Positions 1,123-9,591 of a DNA stretch of 50,298 bases are shown here, in pieces. The position numbers were made by a program, and so were the translations under genes. Position 1 is the stretch's first letter. Each line of letters begins with the position of its first letter. This DNA comes from Butyrivibrio sp. (GTDB taxonomy: Bacteria; Bacillota; Clostridia; Lachnospirales; Lachnospiraceae), in the NCBI GenBank assembly GCA_017470505.1, contig JAFUYO010000030.1:1-50298 (forward strand), read 5' to 3'. The notes beneath the pieces were generated by a model that searched no databases, was not told the DNA's origin, and was given only the letters and a program-made list of their open reading frames with translations.

Positions 1123-1232
1123 TCATGCGTTCGTAAGAATCTTCTTCACTTCGTCAGTAGCTATTCCGCTCTTTTCCGCCATAGTTTTTATTGGCATCTG
1201 TCCCCGCATCAGACTTCTGCTTATTTTGCTAA
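1123..1232 (-). pseudogene. Rpn C-terminal helical tail displaced into the -1 frame
   Basis: Directly after the stop of the Rpn gene, the -1 frame reads on without a stop for about 35 codons (SKISRSLMRGQMPIKTMAEK, then SGIATDEVKKILTNA). This resembles the small helix-turn-helix-like tail that ends many Rpn-family proteins. The overlap bases are GCA AAA TAA, so one slip on A-AAA would join the two frames. The simplest reading is a frameshift mutation that shortened the protein; programmed slippage is a less likely alternative. Confidence 0.4.
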
Positions 1233-1421
1233 AGCCGCTCTCAGATTTTCAATTTCTTCACGAAGGCGTTCATTTTCTCGTTTCAATGACTCTCTTTCTT
1301 TCTTACCTTCGGCCAATCCTTCTTCTCTGCCTACTTTTCTTCCTTCTTCTCTCCCCTTCTTTTTATTTGCTCTTGCCACAAGATCCAATGCATTGATTTC
1401 ATGATATTCTGCTGTCAACAT
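1221..1421 (-). CDS. Candidate intragenic small protein of the Rpn gene (RpnS-like)
   Basis: The ATG at codon 235 of the Rpn gene (base 1421) is preceded by GGAGGTGA and a 5-base spacer, as good a ribosome binding site as any in the window. Translation from it would give the last 66 residues of Rpn, in frame: a helix starting MLTAEYHEINALDL followed by the charged coiled coil. The same signal, GGAGGTGA-GCAAT-ATG, is present in the second copy at 3303. In E. coli, Rpn genes are known to encode such in-frame C-terminal small proteins, which bind the long form and block its toxicity. Here the small product is predicted from sequence only. Confidence 0.55.
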   Translation of the reverse strand: MLTAEYHEINALDLVARANKKKGREEGRKVGREEGLAEGKKERESLKRENERLREEIENLRAALAK

Positions 1422-2123
1422 ATTACTCACCTCCGCCTGATTGCTCTTGAGAAATGCCCTGATTTCGAAATCTTCAGGCATCTCCACGATTGCTTTTCCT
1501 ACAGCCTGCTCAATCTCCATGCTCTTATTGTACTCGCGGACTCTATCTATAAACCATGAATACTCATAGAGCGGCCTGCACTTCTGCAAAAGCTCCGCAT
1601 TGTGCCCGTAATTGATATTGAGCATTCTCACTTTCACTTCGATATCTGACTTGCCACCATGTTCTGACTTAAAGGAATCGCTTAATCTGAGAATTGTCTC
1701 ATCCGGCGCATCCTTTTTGCCATTGTAGAAAACTACGAGCTTGGGAACCGGCAGTTCTAAAAGATCTTCTCCATAAACATCCAGATCGTTCTCGTCTACG
1801 TACTTACCATAGAGATTTCCAGCATACCTCATCATTCGTAGCGGCATATTGGGATTAAATGTAGACTGATGCTCGTACAAATTCATTGAATCAGCAATGA
1901 TAAATGAGACGTCATTCTTGATGCTCAGGTATAGATAATCCTGAAGCCCATTAAAGAGTATCTGCGATTCGTCCTCATAGTGCGAGTCATTTACTGCATT
2001 GTACAGCGACAATGTCCACTTGCGGTTTCTTTCGTTCCCGAAAATAAAGCAAAATACTTTGTCCTTGCCTTTTCTGTTAACTGCTGCTTTATGTCTTTTT
2101 CTTCTTCTCTTCTTTCTTGACAA
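1221..2123 (-). CDS. Rpn family recombination-promoting nuclease/putative transposase
   Basis: This 300-residue protein belongs to the Rpn (PDDEXK, transposase_31-like) family of DNA endonucleases that promote RecA-independent recombination and have been linked to phage defence. The nuclease core shows Asp71/Asp78 and the EHQS motif at residues 84-87. Residues 255-300 form a Lys/Glu-rich coiled coil with two GREEG units. The start is TTG at 2123 because AAGGAGG lies 8 bases upstream; an ATG touching that SD is in another frame. The first 20 residues are very basic. A -1 frame extension after the stop hints at loss of a short tail. A second, mosaic copy lies at 3120-3803 and mrr pieces lie on both sides. 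An internal start inside this gene is listed separately. Confidence 0.85.
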   Translation of the reverse strand: MSRKKRRRKRHKAAVNRKGKDKVFCFIFGNERNRKWTLSLYNAVNDSHYEDESQILFNGLQDYLYLSIKNDVSFIIADSMNLYEHQSTFNPNMPLRMMRYAGNLYGKYVDENDLDVYGEDLLELPVPKLVVFYNGKKDAPDETILRLSDSFKSEHGGKSDIEVKVRMLNINYGHNAELLQKCRPLYEYSWFIDRVREYNKSMEIEQAVGKAIVEMPEDFEIRAFLKSNQAEVSNMLTAEYHEINALDLVARANKKKGREEGRKVGREEGLAEGKKERESLKRENERLREEIENLRAALAK

Positions 2124-2357
2124 GCTGTCATCCTCCTTTATGTTCTTTCAAACAACCATAAAGGAAATAGATGAAACAAGGATAATAATAGATGATTTAT
2201 CTGTTTGTTACTCTAATTATAATACCCGGCCTGCTTAATAAAAAGAGGGGATTTGTGGACGATACGTCCCGAAACCTTTATGATTGTTCGACAGGAGACA
2301 TCGTACAGCAAATAAACAGATTCGTCAAGTACCTTCATAAGTCTGGATTACCTACCT

Positions 2358-3119
2358 CTATTCGTCTTGATACTCAGCCAGAGCGTCCGTATCAATTGCC
2401 TTAATTTCAAAAGTCTTACGAGTAGAAACGCAAAAGTTATGCTCAATCATCAGGTTAACCAGTCTCGTTCCATCAACGAGAATAATATGATGTGCATCTG
2501 CATAATTCCTGGCCTTCTGCGAGAACTTTGCTGTTGTAACAAACAATCCATCCCCGTGTTTTCCAGCGATTGCCCCGACAAAATTCTGAATTTCCGGCTG
2601 CCCAACAACTCTGTCCACTGCCCATTCCTTTGCCTGCATGTAGATCAGAGAGAAGCCAAGCTTGTCCTTGATAACTCCATCAATTCCATCATCTCCGGAT
2701 GCAACCGTCGCATGACTACCATATGCCACAGTTCCATAGCCCATCTTTGATAGCAGATCGACAACGAGTTTTTCAAAGGTGTATGGAGAAATTTTTAAAA
2801 CTTCACTCATCAAATCTGACGCAAGGCTTGCATTTATCTGCTCATATGCATCTTCAAGCTGGTCGTCCGGTGTGAGGTCTGTCTGCTTAAGATCTTCAGA
2901 TGTCGAATTATCATCACCTGATAATTCGCTCGCAGATGCAAAGTCTACAAAAGAAGGAAAACGCTCAAGATATCTCTTGTCTATCTTTTCAGGGTTCTCT
3001 GAAACAACCTGTTTCCCGGCTTCGGTGATTACAATAGTTGCACGAGCGGGGCTATCAAGAAGTCCAGCCTTTTTAAGGTATGTTTTTGCCCATCCAACTC
3101 TATTCTTAAATACTGTTTA
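2358..3119 (-). pseudogene. Mrr restriction endonuclease lacking its N-terminus
   Basis: An open frame runs from about 3119 to the stop at 2358. It begins inside the Mrr N-terminal winged helix (TVFKNRVGWAKTYLKKAG), passes through an acidic linker, and ends with a complete Mrr catalytic domain of the PD-(D/E)XK type: GDDGID and, 15 residues later, QAK, counted on the piece beginning MSEVLK at 2810. The first 50 or so residues are missing, and upstream sequence switches at 3117-3121 into the 3' end of an Rpn copy. An internal ATG at 2810 could still start a product of about 150 residues holding the whole catalytic domain without the target-recognition domain, so residual activity cannot be excluded. 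Confidence 0.75.
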
Positions 3120-3803
3120 TTTTGCTAAAGCCGCTCTCAGATTTTCAATTTCTTCACGAAGGCGCTCATTTTCTCGTTTCAATGATTCTCTTTCTCGCCT
3201 TTGGCGAATCCCTTTTTCTCGCCTTCTTCTAATCCCTTCTTTTTATTTGCTCTTGCCACAAGATCCAGCGCATTGATTTCATGATATTCTGCTGTCAACA
3301 TATTGCTCACCTCCGCCTGATTGCTCTTAAGAAATGCCCTGATTTCGAAATCTTCAGGCATCTCCACGATCGCTTTTCCAACAGACTGCTCAATTCCAGG
3401 CTGCACTCACTCTGAATACTTATGCAAATATTCAGTAGCTTTTTCTTTGGTAAGGTCAAATCTCTTCATGAGCTTTTCGATGATGACCTCTTTGGTAACA
3501 CCATCTTCGAGCTTATCCTCAATAAATGCTTTTATTCCTTCTTCTTTTCCACGATTGTACTCTTCATCCATGTGCTCTTTATACGTCATGTATTCTACCC
3601 TCCACAGCTGCTTCTCTATGGTTTCCCTAGGAACCGGCAGTTCTAAAAGATCTTCTCCATAAACATCCAGATCGTTCTCGTCTACGTACTTACCATAGAG
3701 ATTTCCAGCATACCTCATCATTCGTAGCGGCATGTTGGGATTGAATGTGGACTGATGCTCATACAAATTCATTGGATCAGTAATGATAAATGAGACGTCA
3801 TCT
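3120..3803 (-). pseudogene. Mosaic, decayed second copy of the Rpn nuclease gene
   Basis: Three blocks can be seen. Bases 3640-3800 match the Rpn core of 1221-2123 from the nuclease motif (MNLYEHQSTFNPN) to LPVP. Bases 3407-3636 encode an unrelated C-terminal segment (RETIEKQLWRVEYMTYKEH... KATEYLHKYSE) with its own stop, apparently from a different Rpn-type protein. Bases 3120-3393 again match the copy at 1221-2123, from about IEQ-VGKAIVEMPEDF to the final LRAALAK, but are frameshifted near 3180. The N-terminal 60-70 codons are missing. The 3' end is fused to mrr by a short microhomology at 3117-3121. The first block plus foreign tail remains open as a 121-codon frame (3407-3772). Confidence 0.75.
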
Positions 3804-3829
3804 TAGATAATCTCCCATATCAACACCAA

Positions 3830-4993
3830 TCAAAATCCGAGATACTTTTTTCTAAGTTCAACATTAGCCAGCAAAGCCAGGTATCTCCTCATATTCATCC
3901 TCCCGCTGTTACAGGTAACATTTTTACTTGAAAGATCCCAGCTCCCCTTAACCTTTTCGATAATTTTTCCCGCCTCTGCATTATCGTCATAAAGCTTTCT
4001 TAGTACTTCTACCGCTGCACGATACTCCTTTTTGCTACCATTAGCTATAAACTCATAAAACATATCCTGAAAAGCAAATACTCGCTTATATCTACTTTCC
4101 ACATCAAAAAGTAAATCAATTAGCTCCTTAACAAATTGCTGCGTATCACACTCATCCGGAGTACCCTTTAACGCTTCCTTATATTCCTCAACTCTTTTGT
4201 TAAGCCACTTTTCTGTTTCATCAGTTATTTCCACTTCGTCAGAGCCGTCCCACCAGAACAACCTATCTGCATCAGAAATGTAATAATTCGGATAACCCTT
4301 TAATTCATCAGGAGTCCCATAGAATGTAAAATAGCCATCATTCTTTAAAAACTCTGAAGTTTTTATCTTCCTTATCGGGCGTTCACGTCCCTCTTTTCTA
4401 TAGGACAATAATTCGTCTGAGACATATTTAGGCATCTTTTCATCGTTATACGCCTCATCTTTTACACTCTTCCATTCAACCCAAAAATGCTTATCAAGCA
4501 ATTCGCAGGTAAGATAAAGAATCGTCCTTGCATGTATGCTTAGCGAGCATTCTGCTAAAGCTTGAATGTATTCCTGACATCCACTTTCTCTCACACTATA
4601 TTTCTTTTTGAGCATTTCAAGAATCAAGGAATATGCTTCCTCAGCACCACATTTTTCAATAGCAACTTCAATAGCTTTTTTACACTTCAAAACATCCGCC
4701 GGATATGTTCCTACCATAACCTCCGTTTCACATAGAGCTTCTGTCCCATTATCTATATAGAGTAAATCAGTAAGGTCCACTCCTCCTGCATATTGCATTA
4801 GATAGCTTGGGATTATCCCCATCAAATGCCTTGCTTGTATAGGCTCGTCATTATATTCCAGATGTTCAAATGCATAGCCTTCAACCACTTCCCACAAGTT
4901 GAAACGTCTACTAATACGACAAGCTGCCAACATGCAAGGTTCTTGTGAATAAGAGCCCGTCTGTGCTAGGCGAGGCATGTACTCATAAGACAA
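3830..4993 (-). CDS. Hypothetical protein, possibly truncated at the N-terminus
   Basis: I do not recognise this 387-codon frame. The product is soluble and acidic with no signal peptide or membrane segment; it is rich in helices and charged residues, with several Trp and Tyr (FWWDGSDEVEITDETEKW). The frame opens at a TTG at 4993 with no ribosome binding site, and neither later ATG (4978, 4936) has one either, while protein-like sequence continues right up to the junction with the opposite-strand fragment at about 4990. I infer that the true 5' end was lost in a rearrangement. The codon use and AT-richness match the neighbouring accessory genes. Confidence 0.5.
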   Translation of the reverse strand: MSYEYMPRLAQTGSYSQEPCMLAACRISRRFNLWEVVEGYAFEHLEYNDEPIQARHLMGIIPSYLMQYAGGVDLTDLLYIDNGTEALCETEVMVGTYPADVLKCKKAIEVAIEKCGAEEAYSLILEMLKKKYSVRESGCQEYIQALAECSLSIHARTILYLTCELLDKHFWVEWKSVKDEAYNDEKMPKYVSDELLSYRKEGRERPIRKIKTSEFLKNDGYFTFYGTPDELKGYPNYYISDADRLFWWDGSDEVEITDETEKWLNKRVEEYKEALKGTPDECDTQQFVKELIDLLFDVESRYKRVFAFQDMFYEFIANGSKKEYRAAVEVLRKLYDDNAEAGKIIEKVKGSWDLSSKNVTCNSGRMNMRRYLALLANVELRKKYLGF

Positions 4994-8012: not shown

Positions 8013-8420
8013 ATGGGATCAACTTATACCAAAGCTCAAAAAGAAGCCACTAAACGATACATCAATTCAACCGACCAGATAAGAGTGCGAACCGAAAAAG
8101 GGAATATTGACTTCATCAAAGCCCACGCAAAGTCCATGGGAGAAACCATGGGCGAATTTGTTAACAGAGCAATATCAGAGGCAATATATCGTGATCGTGG
8201 AGAAATACTGATTGAAACAACCCACAGTGATGAGTATAACCTTTCAGGGAAACTTCTTTTATCATCAGATGAGCATTATGAAATAGATTATATTATGAAC
8301 GGAGTTAGGAAGATCAGGAAACTGGATAAGCAAAAAGATGTTCCGAGCGCTTTTATTTCTGACTATGCCTGGATGAAGCTTGAAGATGAGATTGAAAATA
8401 ATTTATTAGGTGGTGAATAA
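8013..8420 (+). CDS. Ribbon-helix-helix protein, probable antitoxin/autorepressor
   Basis: The 135-residue product has an RHH-type DNA-binding region at residues 21-58: a DQIRVRT strand followed by two helices with GETMGEFVNRAI. The rest is an extended domain that could neutralise the partner kinase. I chose ATG 8013, which has GAGGT 8 bases upstream, over the earlier GTG at 7986, which lies inside the operator. The stop is separated by one base from the start of the HipA-like kinase, so the genes form a two-gene operon. By position it takes the place of HipB in a HipBA module, although HipB is normally an HTH protein. The antitoxin role is inference. Confidence 0.7.
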   Translation: MGSTYTKAQKEATKRYINSTDQIRVRTEKGNIDFIKAHAKSMGETMGEFVNRAISEAIYRDRGEILIETTHSDEYNLSGKLLLSSDEHYEIDYIMNGVRKIRKLDKQKDVPSAFISDYAWMKLEDEIENNLLGGE

Positions 8421-8421
8421 T

Positions 8422-9591
8422 ATGCCAATGTTTAGTTTGATGAGAAAGAACGAAGAAATCATGATCCTCCAAATCGGTGCAGACGGGAATATCATCAAAA
8501 CCGGCAAGACCAAAAACACTGCAATCCTTCCACTGCAAAACCGAACCGGTCACAGAGGAGTCATAGAATGGTGGCGCGACCGGGCTATTCCGATAAAGCA
8601 GGGGAAAGTAGAACAGATGCTCAGAGAAAACGGCATTGAGACTACAGGTCTTTTTCTCATGCATAATCTTGGTCTTGGTCTCACCGATTACTATTGGATA
8701 AGACCACTGGGAGCAGACTTATCATGGGAAGATGTTAATTTATTTGATAATAATTTCAAAGAAAACCTCCTGCTTGGCAAAATCCGCTACAATGAAACTG
8801 ATGTCTGTGAATACCAACCCAACTCATCTCTGCAAGGCAATCTGGAAAAGACATGGATAATCGAGAATGGTATACGAAAGCTCGTAAAAGGCAACCACGA
8901 TGTTTATTCCGCCGAGAGTATAAACGAAGTCATTATAAGTGAGGCGATCAAATCCCAGGGAAGAGACGTCGTGCAATACTCTTTACTTCATATCGATGGA
9001 AAAAAATATGATTTTGGCTGCATTTCAACTCTGTTTACTTCGCAGCAAAAAGAACTGGTTTCCGCATATGCTGTTATAACAAGCGAACCAAAAGCCAATA
9101 ACATTTCTCAGTACGAGCATTTCATCAATGTATGCGAAAGAAATGGTTTGGACAGAAACACCGTCAGAAATCATCTTGAATTTGAGATTCTGATAGATTT
9201 TATCTTTAGCAACCGCGACAGGCATTTGACCAACATATCCGTATTGCGCGACGCAGACACTCTAAAATTTATATCGATGGCACCAATTTATGACAATGGC
9301 AAAAGCATGCTTGCAGGCAGGGACATTGTTCCTGTAACAGACAAGTATGTTCTATCTCAGGACGCAGCAGGATTTAAAGAAACAGAACTCGAACTTTTGA
9401 AGTTGGTTCAAGACAGAAAGCTTATAGACGTTCATTTATTGCCAGACACAGATTACATAAAGGAAATGTACTTAAAGGATTCTCAGGTAAGCGAATCCAG
9501 AATAGACTTCATACTGGAAATGTACAAAAGAAAAATAGATATGTACGAAAAATTCGCAAGAGGCGAAGACTTAAGGAATATCAGATTTTAA
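8422..9591 (+). CDS. HipA-like Ser/Thr kinase (putative toxin)
   Basis: The 389-residue protein has two parts. Residues 1-115 resemble the N-terminal HipA subdomain, with GLTDYYWIRP and LSWEDVNLF. Residues 140-389 are a kinase of the HipA/PI3K-like fold: the catalytic loop is N264-R-D-R-H-L-T-N271 and the metal-binding motif is D291-N-G. In HipA these residues bind ATP and magnesium, and HipA kinases phosphorylate targets such as glutamyl-tRNA synthetase to halt growth; the target here is unknown. ATG 8422 follows AGGTGGTGA with a 5-base spacer; a GTG at 8410 lies in the SD itself. Expression is probably controlled by the upstream RHH protein and ends at a strong terminator. Confidence 0.75.
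   Translation: MPMFSLMRKNEEIMILQIGADGNIIKTGKTKNTAILPLQNRTGHRGVIEWWRDRAIPIKQGKVEQMLRENGIETTGLFLMHNLGLGLTDYYWIRPLGADLSWEDVNLFDNNFKENLLLGKIRYNETDVCEYQPNSSLQGNLEKTWIIENGIRKLVKGNHDVYSAESINEVIISEAIKSQGRDVVQYSLLHIDGKKYDFGCISTLFTSQQKELVSAYAVITSEPKANNISQYEHFINVCERNGLDRNTVRNHLEFEILIDFIFSNRDRHLTNISVLRDADTLKFISMAPIYDNGKSMLAGRDIVPVTDKYVLSQDAAGFKETELELLKLVQDRKLIDVHLLPDTDYIKEMYLKDSQVSESRIDFILEMYKRKIDMYEKFARGEDLRNIRF

Follow-up and report, generated by a model that had tools for sequence, protein, structure and literature searches.

An Rpn-type nuclease gene of Butyrivibrio sp. carries an in-frame ATG at codon 235 behind a strong internal Shine-Dalgarno (SD) sequence, and in relatives of the gene both the SD and the start codon are under selection. 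The gene lies on the minus strand of the window, meaning the whole stretch of 50,298 nucleotides that was analysed. Given the site's strength and the selection on its SD and start codon in relatives, translation very likely initiates at codon 235. In the reading that we hold to be probable, this is a gene within a gene that encodes a nuclease, RpnL, together with its internally started 66-residue antitoxin, RpnS, as a defence pair. Ribosomes starting at the TTG (2123) would make the full nuclease, while those entering at the internal SD and ATG (1434-1419) would make RpnS, a long repeat-bearing helix. RpnS would then bind the tail of RpnL, whose sequence is the same as its own, and silence the nuclease for as long as no trigger, which is probably phage-linked, releases RpnL. 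We infer translation in the host, RpnS-RpnL binding, inhibition and a toxin-antitoxin role in defence by analogy; antitoxin action is the most likely role of this RpnS in the light of published work, in which RpnL cuts DNA and is toxic and RpnS, which is the tail of RpnL, binds and blocks it (PMC10327210).

The features of the locus are collected in Table 1. As the preliminary description had stated, GGAGGTGA, a 5-base spacer and an ATG stand in frame at codon 235 (1434-1419, minus strand), so that the gene has an internal ribosome binding site (RBS) and start for a predicted small C-terminal product, as Rpn genes of the gene-within-gene kind do. Computed SD pairing, with a 12-base anti-SD, is -13.8 kcal/mol at the internal ATG versus -12.5 at the gene's own TTG start. 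The value at codon 235 is the best among the 571 in-frame internal starts of the 35 non-overlapping window ORFs of at least 150 aa, and the only tie is TTG codon 236, with which it shares its SD. The perfect pattern of GGAGGTGA, 5 nt and ATG occurs twice in the window, at codon 235 and in the mosaic copy discussed below. When up to two mismatches are allowed there are 24 matches versus 16.3 expected, and since 6 of 100 shuffles also reach 24, the loose pattern alone is not significant. Our positive control, codon 244 of E. coli rpnA, at which internal initiation is proven, scores -8.5 with a 10-base E. coli anti-SD; the control was not clean, as TTG codon 121 of the same gene also scores -8.5, so it is conservation that singles out a start and not the pairing score alone.

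Table 1. Features of the Rpn locus and of its mosaic copy (positions in the window).
Feature	Position	Strand	Remarks
Rpn-type nuclease gene (RpnL)	1221..2123	-	300-codon open frame, TTG start
AAAGGAGG, RBS of the main TTG start	2132..2139	-	SD pairing -12.5 kcal/mol (computed)
Asp71 codon, presumed catalytic residue in the PD-(D/E)XK core	1911..1913	-	invariant in 53-sequence alignment
Codons of Glu84-x-Gln86 (EHQ), presumed catalytic motif	1866..1874	-	E84 invariant, Q86 at least 90% conserved (53 aligned sequences)
Internal SD, GGAGGTGA	1427..1434	-	pattern match; its codons GCG, GAG and GTG are strong synonymous outliers in homologues
Spacer GTAAT between internal SD and ATG	1426-1422	-	
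Internal start ATG, codon 235	1419..1421	-	in frame with 1221-2123; opens 66 codons
Predicted RpnS small protein, 66 aa	1221..1421	-	frame and stop shared with RpnL
Four-residue repeats KKKG REEG RKVG REEG LAEG	1305..1364	-	sequence; Gly spacing of 4 in homologues
Mosaic copy of the gene's 3' part	3113..3402	-	88.6% identity to 1217-1523; frameshift downstream of the internal start
Copied internal SD and ATG, 40-codon product	3299..3314	-	GGAGGTGA GCAAT ATG; ATG at 3301-3299
Different RpnS-like tail, 60 aa, own GGAGG and ATG	3407..3589	-	SD pairing -9.8 kcal/mol
Mosaic copy, Rpn nuclease domain fragment	3630..3808	-	95.6% identity to 1744-1922

Conservation was followed in the host's own family, in which 130 of 299 genomes hold homologue matches at E 1e-10. 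From at least 150 matches listed by this search about 133 were taken. The 148 loci (4, plus 29 new, 15 named and 100 fetched regions) gave 152 ORFs that were kept and 147 that aligned at the site. Removal of ORFs shorter than 200 aa or more than 80% identical to a kept one left a non-redundant set of 116, window gene included; the 147-row codon table includes one misaligned row (an ORF of locus L004). Each of the 116 homologues has an in-frame start codon (ATG, GTG or TTG) at the site, up to two codons before it or one after it, with pairing of -7 kcal/mol or better. Median pairing at the site is -12.5 kcal/mol. The other in-frame starts, 2562 in all, have a median of -2.8, and -7 is reached by 226 of them (8.8%). 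The aligned start column holds ATG in 64 genes, GTG in 37, TTG in 4 and another codon in 11, and in those 11 a start lies at most two codons upstream or one downstream. When starts at -8 or better were counted in four-codon bins, the site's bin drew 115 genes and the best of 291 others 32; the latter, at alignment column 189, probably collects the homologues' main starts, because it falls ahead of the first residue of the window protein.

Codon choice at the site goes well beyond what its residues require. Relative to an expectation drawn from each gene's codon usage, the SD's Glu codon is GAG in 111 of 113 cases (41.8 expected, z 13.9), and the Ala, Ser or Thr before it is spelled GCG, TCG or ACG in 81 of 97 (22.4 expected, z 14.7). 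These two columns rank second and first, respectively, in synonymous bias among all 316, for which the mean z is 2.2 (sd 2.1). Where the start position holds Val, all 37 cases use GTG (13.3 expected, z 8.4). Strong bias of this kind is found elsewhere too, and third place goes to an N-terminal Asp column (z 9.6). N-terminal columns (window residues about 16-25 and 56-63) are often biased towards codons ending in C (AAC, GAC, TTC or ATC), with z of about 5-9.6. Rank four (z 9.2) belongs to the Ser directly after the internal start (column 577), which is AGT in 38 of 49 genes versus 8.1 expected, possibly a second-codon preference for initiation.

The history of the codons points in the same direction. 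On a FastTree tree of the N-terminal domain, without support values and with changes counted by parsimony, the site's Glu switched between GAA and GAG once, versus 14, 21, 21, 35 and 43 switches at five other Glu columns, the last being the invariant Glu84. Over the same tree, at least 20 changes between ATG, GTG and TTG were counted at the start codon among the 105 genes that have one of them at the column. The GAG bias, the exclusive use of GTG for Val, the scarcity of Glu switches and the swapping of start codons therefore indicate selection on initiation and not on the protein. The homologue comparison that the preliminary description had proposed, of whether SD and start are kept beyond what the codons require, thus came out in its favour, as did its reading of the site as an internal RBS and start for a 66-residue helical C-terminal product in an Rpn-type gene.

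The window gene is predicted to encode a PD-(D/E)XK nuclease domain of the Rpn type (COG5464 / TIGR01784), at some distance from the models that define it. The match to PF04754 is marginal (21.6 bits against a cut-off of 21), and at E 0.001 TIGR01784 does not match the window protein. TIGR01784 matches 20 of 53 aligned sequences at this threshold, the window protein not among them, while PF04754 matches 2 and PF12784 matches 3. Asp71 and Glu84-x-Gln86 are presumably catalytic, as family knowledge suggests.

The small protein's composition also fits the family. Four-residue repeats of variable number follow soon after the internal start, as in E. coli Rpn proteins, in which repeat number affects the specificity of RpnS (PMC10327210). 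Across the 116 homologues the frequency of Gly-Gly pairs is 0.093 at a spacing of 4 and 0.075 at 8, versus at most 0.0023 at spacings of 2, 3, 5, 6 and 7, and one repeat unit (12 nt) present in the window gene is deleted in the mosaic copy. A leucine-zipper-like stretch follows the repeats (seen by eye, with a sub-threshold HALZ match), and a single-chain structure model renders the tail as one long helix (residues 242-299). The compact three-helix bundle published for RpnAS, the mark of a subtype and no defining trait of Rpn, was not found in this single-chain model of the tail.

Like E. coli RpnA-E and RpnP2, the window gene is predicted to combine a long PD-(D/E)XK-type protein with an in-frame C-terminal product that has its own internal RBS and start (PMC10327210), although the window protein is a distant relative of these. 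The register of the SD differs too, with GAG GTG x x ATG in the window gene and AAG GAG x x ATG in rpnA. An internal promoter, which is not given as a defining trait, has been reported in E. coli rpn genes (PMC10327210), whereas a consensus scan, which could miss one, found no sigma-70-like minus-strand promoter from 2051 to 1421 (about codon 25 to the site); both products may therefore share one mRNA. RpnS is made from five E. coli rpn genes and from one rpn gene of C. difficile, also Gram-positive and compared here by its published description. The C. difficile RpnS was expressed in E. coli and was abolished by mutating the predicted RBS and start (PMC10327210). The suggestion in the preliminary description that the arrangement may be undescribed in Gram-positive relatives of Rpn is thus superseded: it is already described in one of them, C. 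difficile, and the window gene is a further member. In the literature searched, part of which was available only in portions, we found no study that had tested conservation codon by codon across a large set of rpn genes.

Small C-terminal products that start within a larger frame can also assist their large partner. Cas10d/Cas11d and the phage endolysin CTP1L belong to protein families unrelated to Rpn; Cas11d supports activity or assembly, and the small product of CTP1L is a cell-wall-binding domain. Both resemble what is predicted for the window gene, a single frame with two starts from which a small C-terminal product arises and associates with its large partner (Cas10d/Cas11d, PMC10327210; CTP1L, in the portion of PMC4777826 available). 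The small protein could accordingly be a structural subunit that assembles with the full-length nuclease and on which activity depends, much like Cas11 within CRISPR effector complexes, and the conservation data, which say that the product matters, are silent on what it does. Published experiments make such a role unlikely: RpnAS blocks cleavage by RpnAL in vitro, and SOS induction by the long forms is blocked by RpnAS and RpnBS (PMC10327210). Free-standing small copies beside a full gene fit an inhibitor at least equally well. On one Lachnospiraceae MAG contig (L035), two tandem short ORFs (3317-3953, plus strand) follow the full gene and encode the small protein alone, with one four-residue unit more than the parent. 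DNA similarity runs on for 98-99 bases upstream of their starts but is out of frame there, a single base being missing. Because this upstream stretch is common to both, the two copies count as one event. On one of three faecal phage-labelled scaffolds (L212), a second tail with SD and ATG kept stands behind the full gene. The small copies in both places resemble the free-standing rpnES of E. coli (PMC10327210).

About as doubtful as the subunit role, and if anything slightly more so, is that the locus is decaying in this genome and that the signal survives as a remnant with no function today. The adjoining mosaic Rpn copy is indeed broken and two Mrr pieces are truncated, but the window gene has a good RBS and an uninterrupted frame down to its stop, and it retains D71 and E84, both invariant across the 53 sequences. 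The mosaic copy itself cannot serve as independent support for the internal start, being too similar to the window gene and broken. The preliminary description had counted conservation of the site in two copies in its favour; it was right that SD and ATG persist in the second and that the spacer changed from GTAAT to GCAAT (the ATG is at 3301, not 3303). Since the copied segments are about 89-92% identical, this retention is uninformative: one or two changes are expected in the 16-base site and one is seen. The tail of the copy has 12-nt and 4-nt deletions, the latter of which shifts the frame, and the copy is a recent broken duplicate that proves little.

SD-like motifs within genes can affect elongation, and the conserved motif might accordingly serve ribosome pausing, frameshifting or an RNA element and not initiation. 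We consider this very improbable, given that an ATG, GTG or TTG at the spacing proper to an SD has been kept along with it. The 41-nt stretch around the site, moreover, has slightly weaker structure than the remainder of the gene (mean -4.00 versus -5.05 kcal/mol), and in 82 of 116 homologues its structure is weaker than the average for that gene. In the L035 copies the upstream Rpn frame is lost, yet the start and its frame are kept and the SD, now GGGAGGA, still pairs at -11.9. Even less credible is that the bases are conserved for the protein, an E-V-x-x-M motif that happens to spell an SD and an ATG: E231 and V232 are conserved in at least 90% of the sequences, but protein need alone as the cause is rejected by the synonymous bias and the tree counts given above, the residue at the start position may be M, V or L, yet its codon remains a start codon, and a paralogue in the window's own genome (G000:C30) builds an SD from other residues at the aligned place (GGAGGGCAATAATTATG / AGGAGGGCAATAATTATG, -16.1). 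A chance SD match is ruled out by the presence of the site in 116 of 116 homologues and by its top rank among the 571 window starts.

Beyond the family, Rpn genes were sampled by TIGR01784 in the class (23 of 30 loci analysed; 22 genes of at least 250 aa, 2 of them from the window's own family) and in the phylum (27 of 29 new loci; 25 of at least 250 aa). In 15 of the 22 class genes the stretch 45-125 codons ahead of the stop contains a start with an SD of -8 or better, versus 3 of 22 for a control stretch at 130-210 codons; in the phylum sample this holds for 24 of the 25 genes, versus 2 of 25 for the control. The residues at these sites vary (SEVIDM, WEVLAM, KGGWNM and EGEGLKM, for example), so that one function is served by different codons. 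The arrangement is not universal, since 5 of the 22 class genes have no internal start at -8 or better anywhere scanned. In the class sample, loci L149, L178, L150 and L151, all from family f41, were seen to be without a strong SD-led internal start; the Rpn genes of this family may have another way of making or replacing RpnS.

We lean towards seeing the internal start as an ancestral, near-obligatory landmark of most of the phylum's Rpn genes, a fixed boundary at or near which the antitoxin module downstream can be replaced or set free as a separate gene. Selection would then hold the start codon and SD and not the amino acids or codons, while the tails could be a coiled coil, other helices or repeat arrays. 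The conservation test would mark the boundary past which the antitoxin tail varies, and it turns a published mechanism into a base-exact prediction for more than 100 Rpn genes. Its signature, a constant GAG where Glu codons elsewhere drift and ATG, GTG and TTG replacing one another, needs only sequences and could reveal other genes within genes.

Further copies of the site stretch occur in the flanks of 9 of 140 genes, the window gene included, and the case of L035 is the clear one. Several of the nine are tails of adjoining larger Rpn copies, and a downstream tail copy at one locus (L059) has a weak SD (-7.2). The different RpnS-like tail inside the mosaic copy (3407-3589), between its two copied segments, has matches at E 1e-5 in 12 of the 100 family genomes searched, its own included; in other genomes its relatives occur in full Rpn-length frames (288-334 aa) as well as in short ones (53-180 aa).

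Two Mrr-type restriction gene pieces, an Mrr_N fragment and part of Mrr_cat, lie on the minus strand at 118-384 and 2358-3117, and the upstream end of the Mrr_cat part runs into the copied Rpn stop codon. The 94-base stretch at 137-230 is 93.6% identical to that at 3025-3118, which looks like the outcome of joint duplication and recombination of the Rpn and Mrr pieces. Further along, a gene at 8410-9591 (plus strand) has a HipA_C domain (30.8 bits against a cut-off of 30.5), a possible toxin-type kinase near the Rpn locus.
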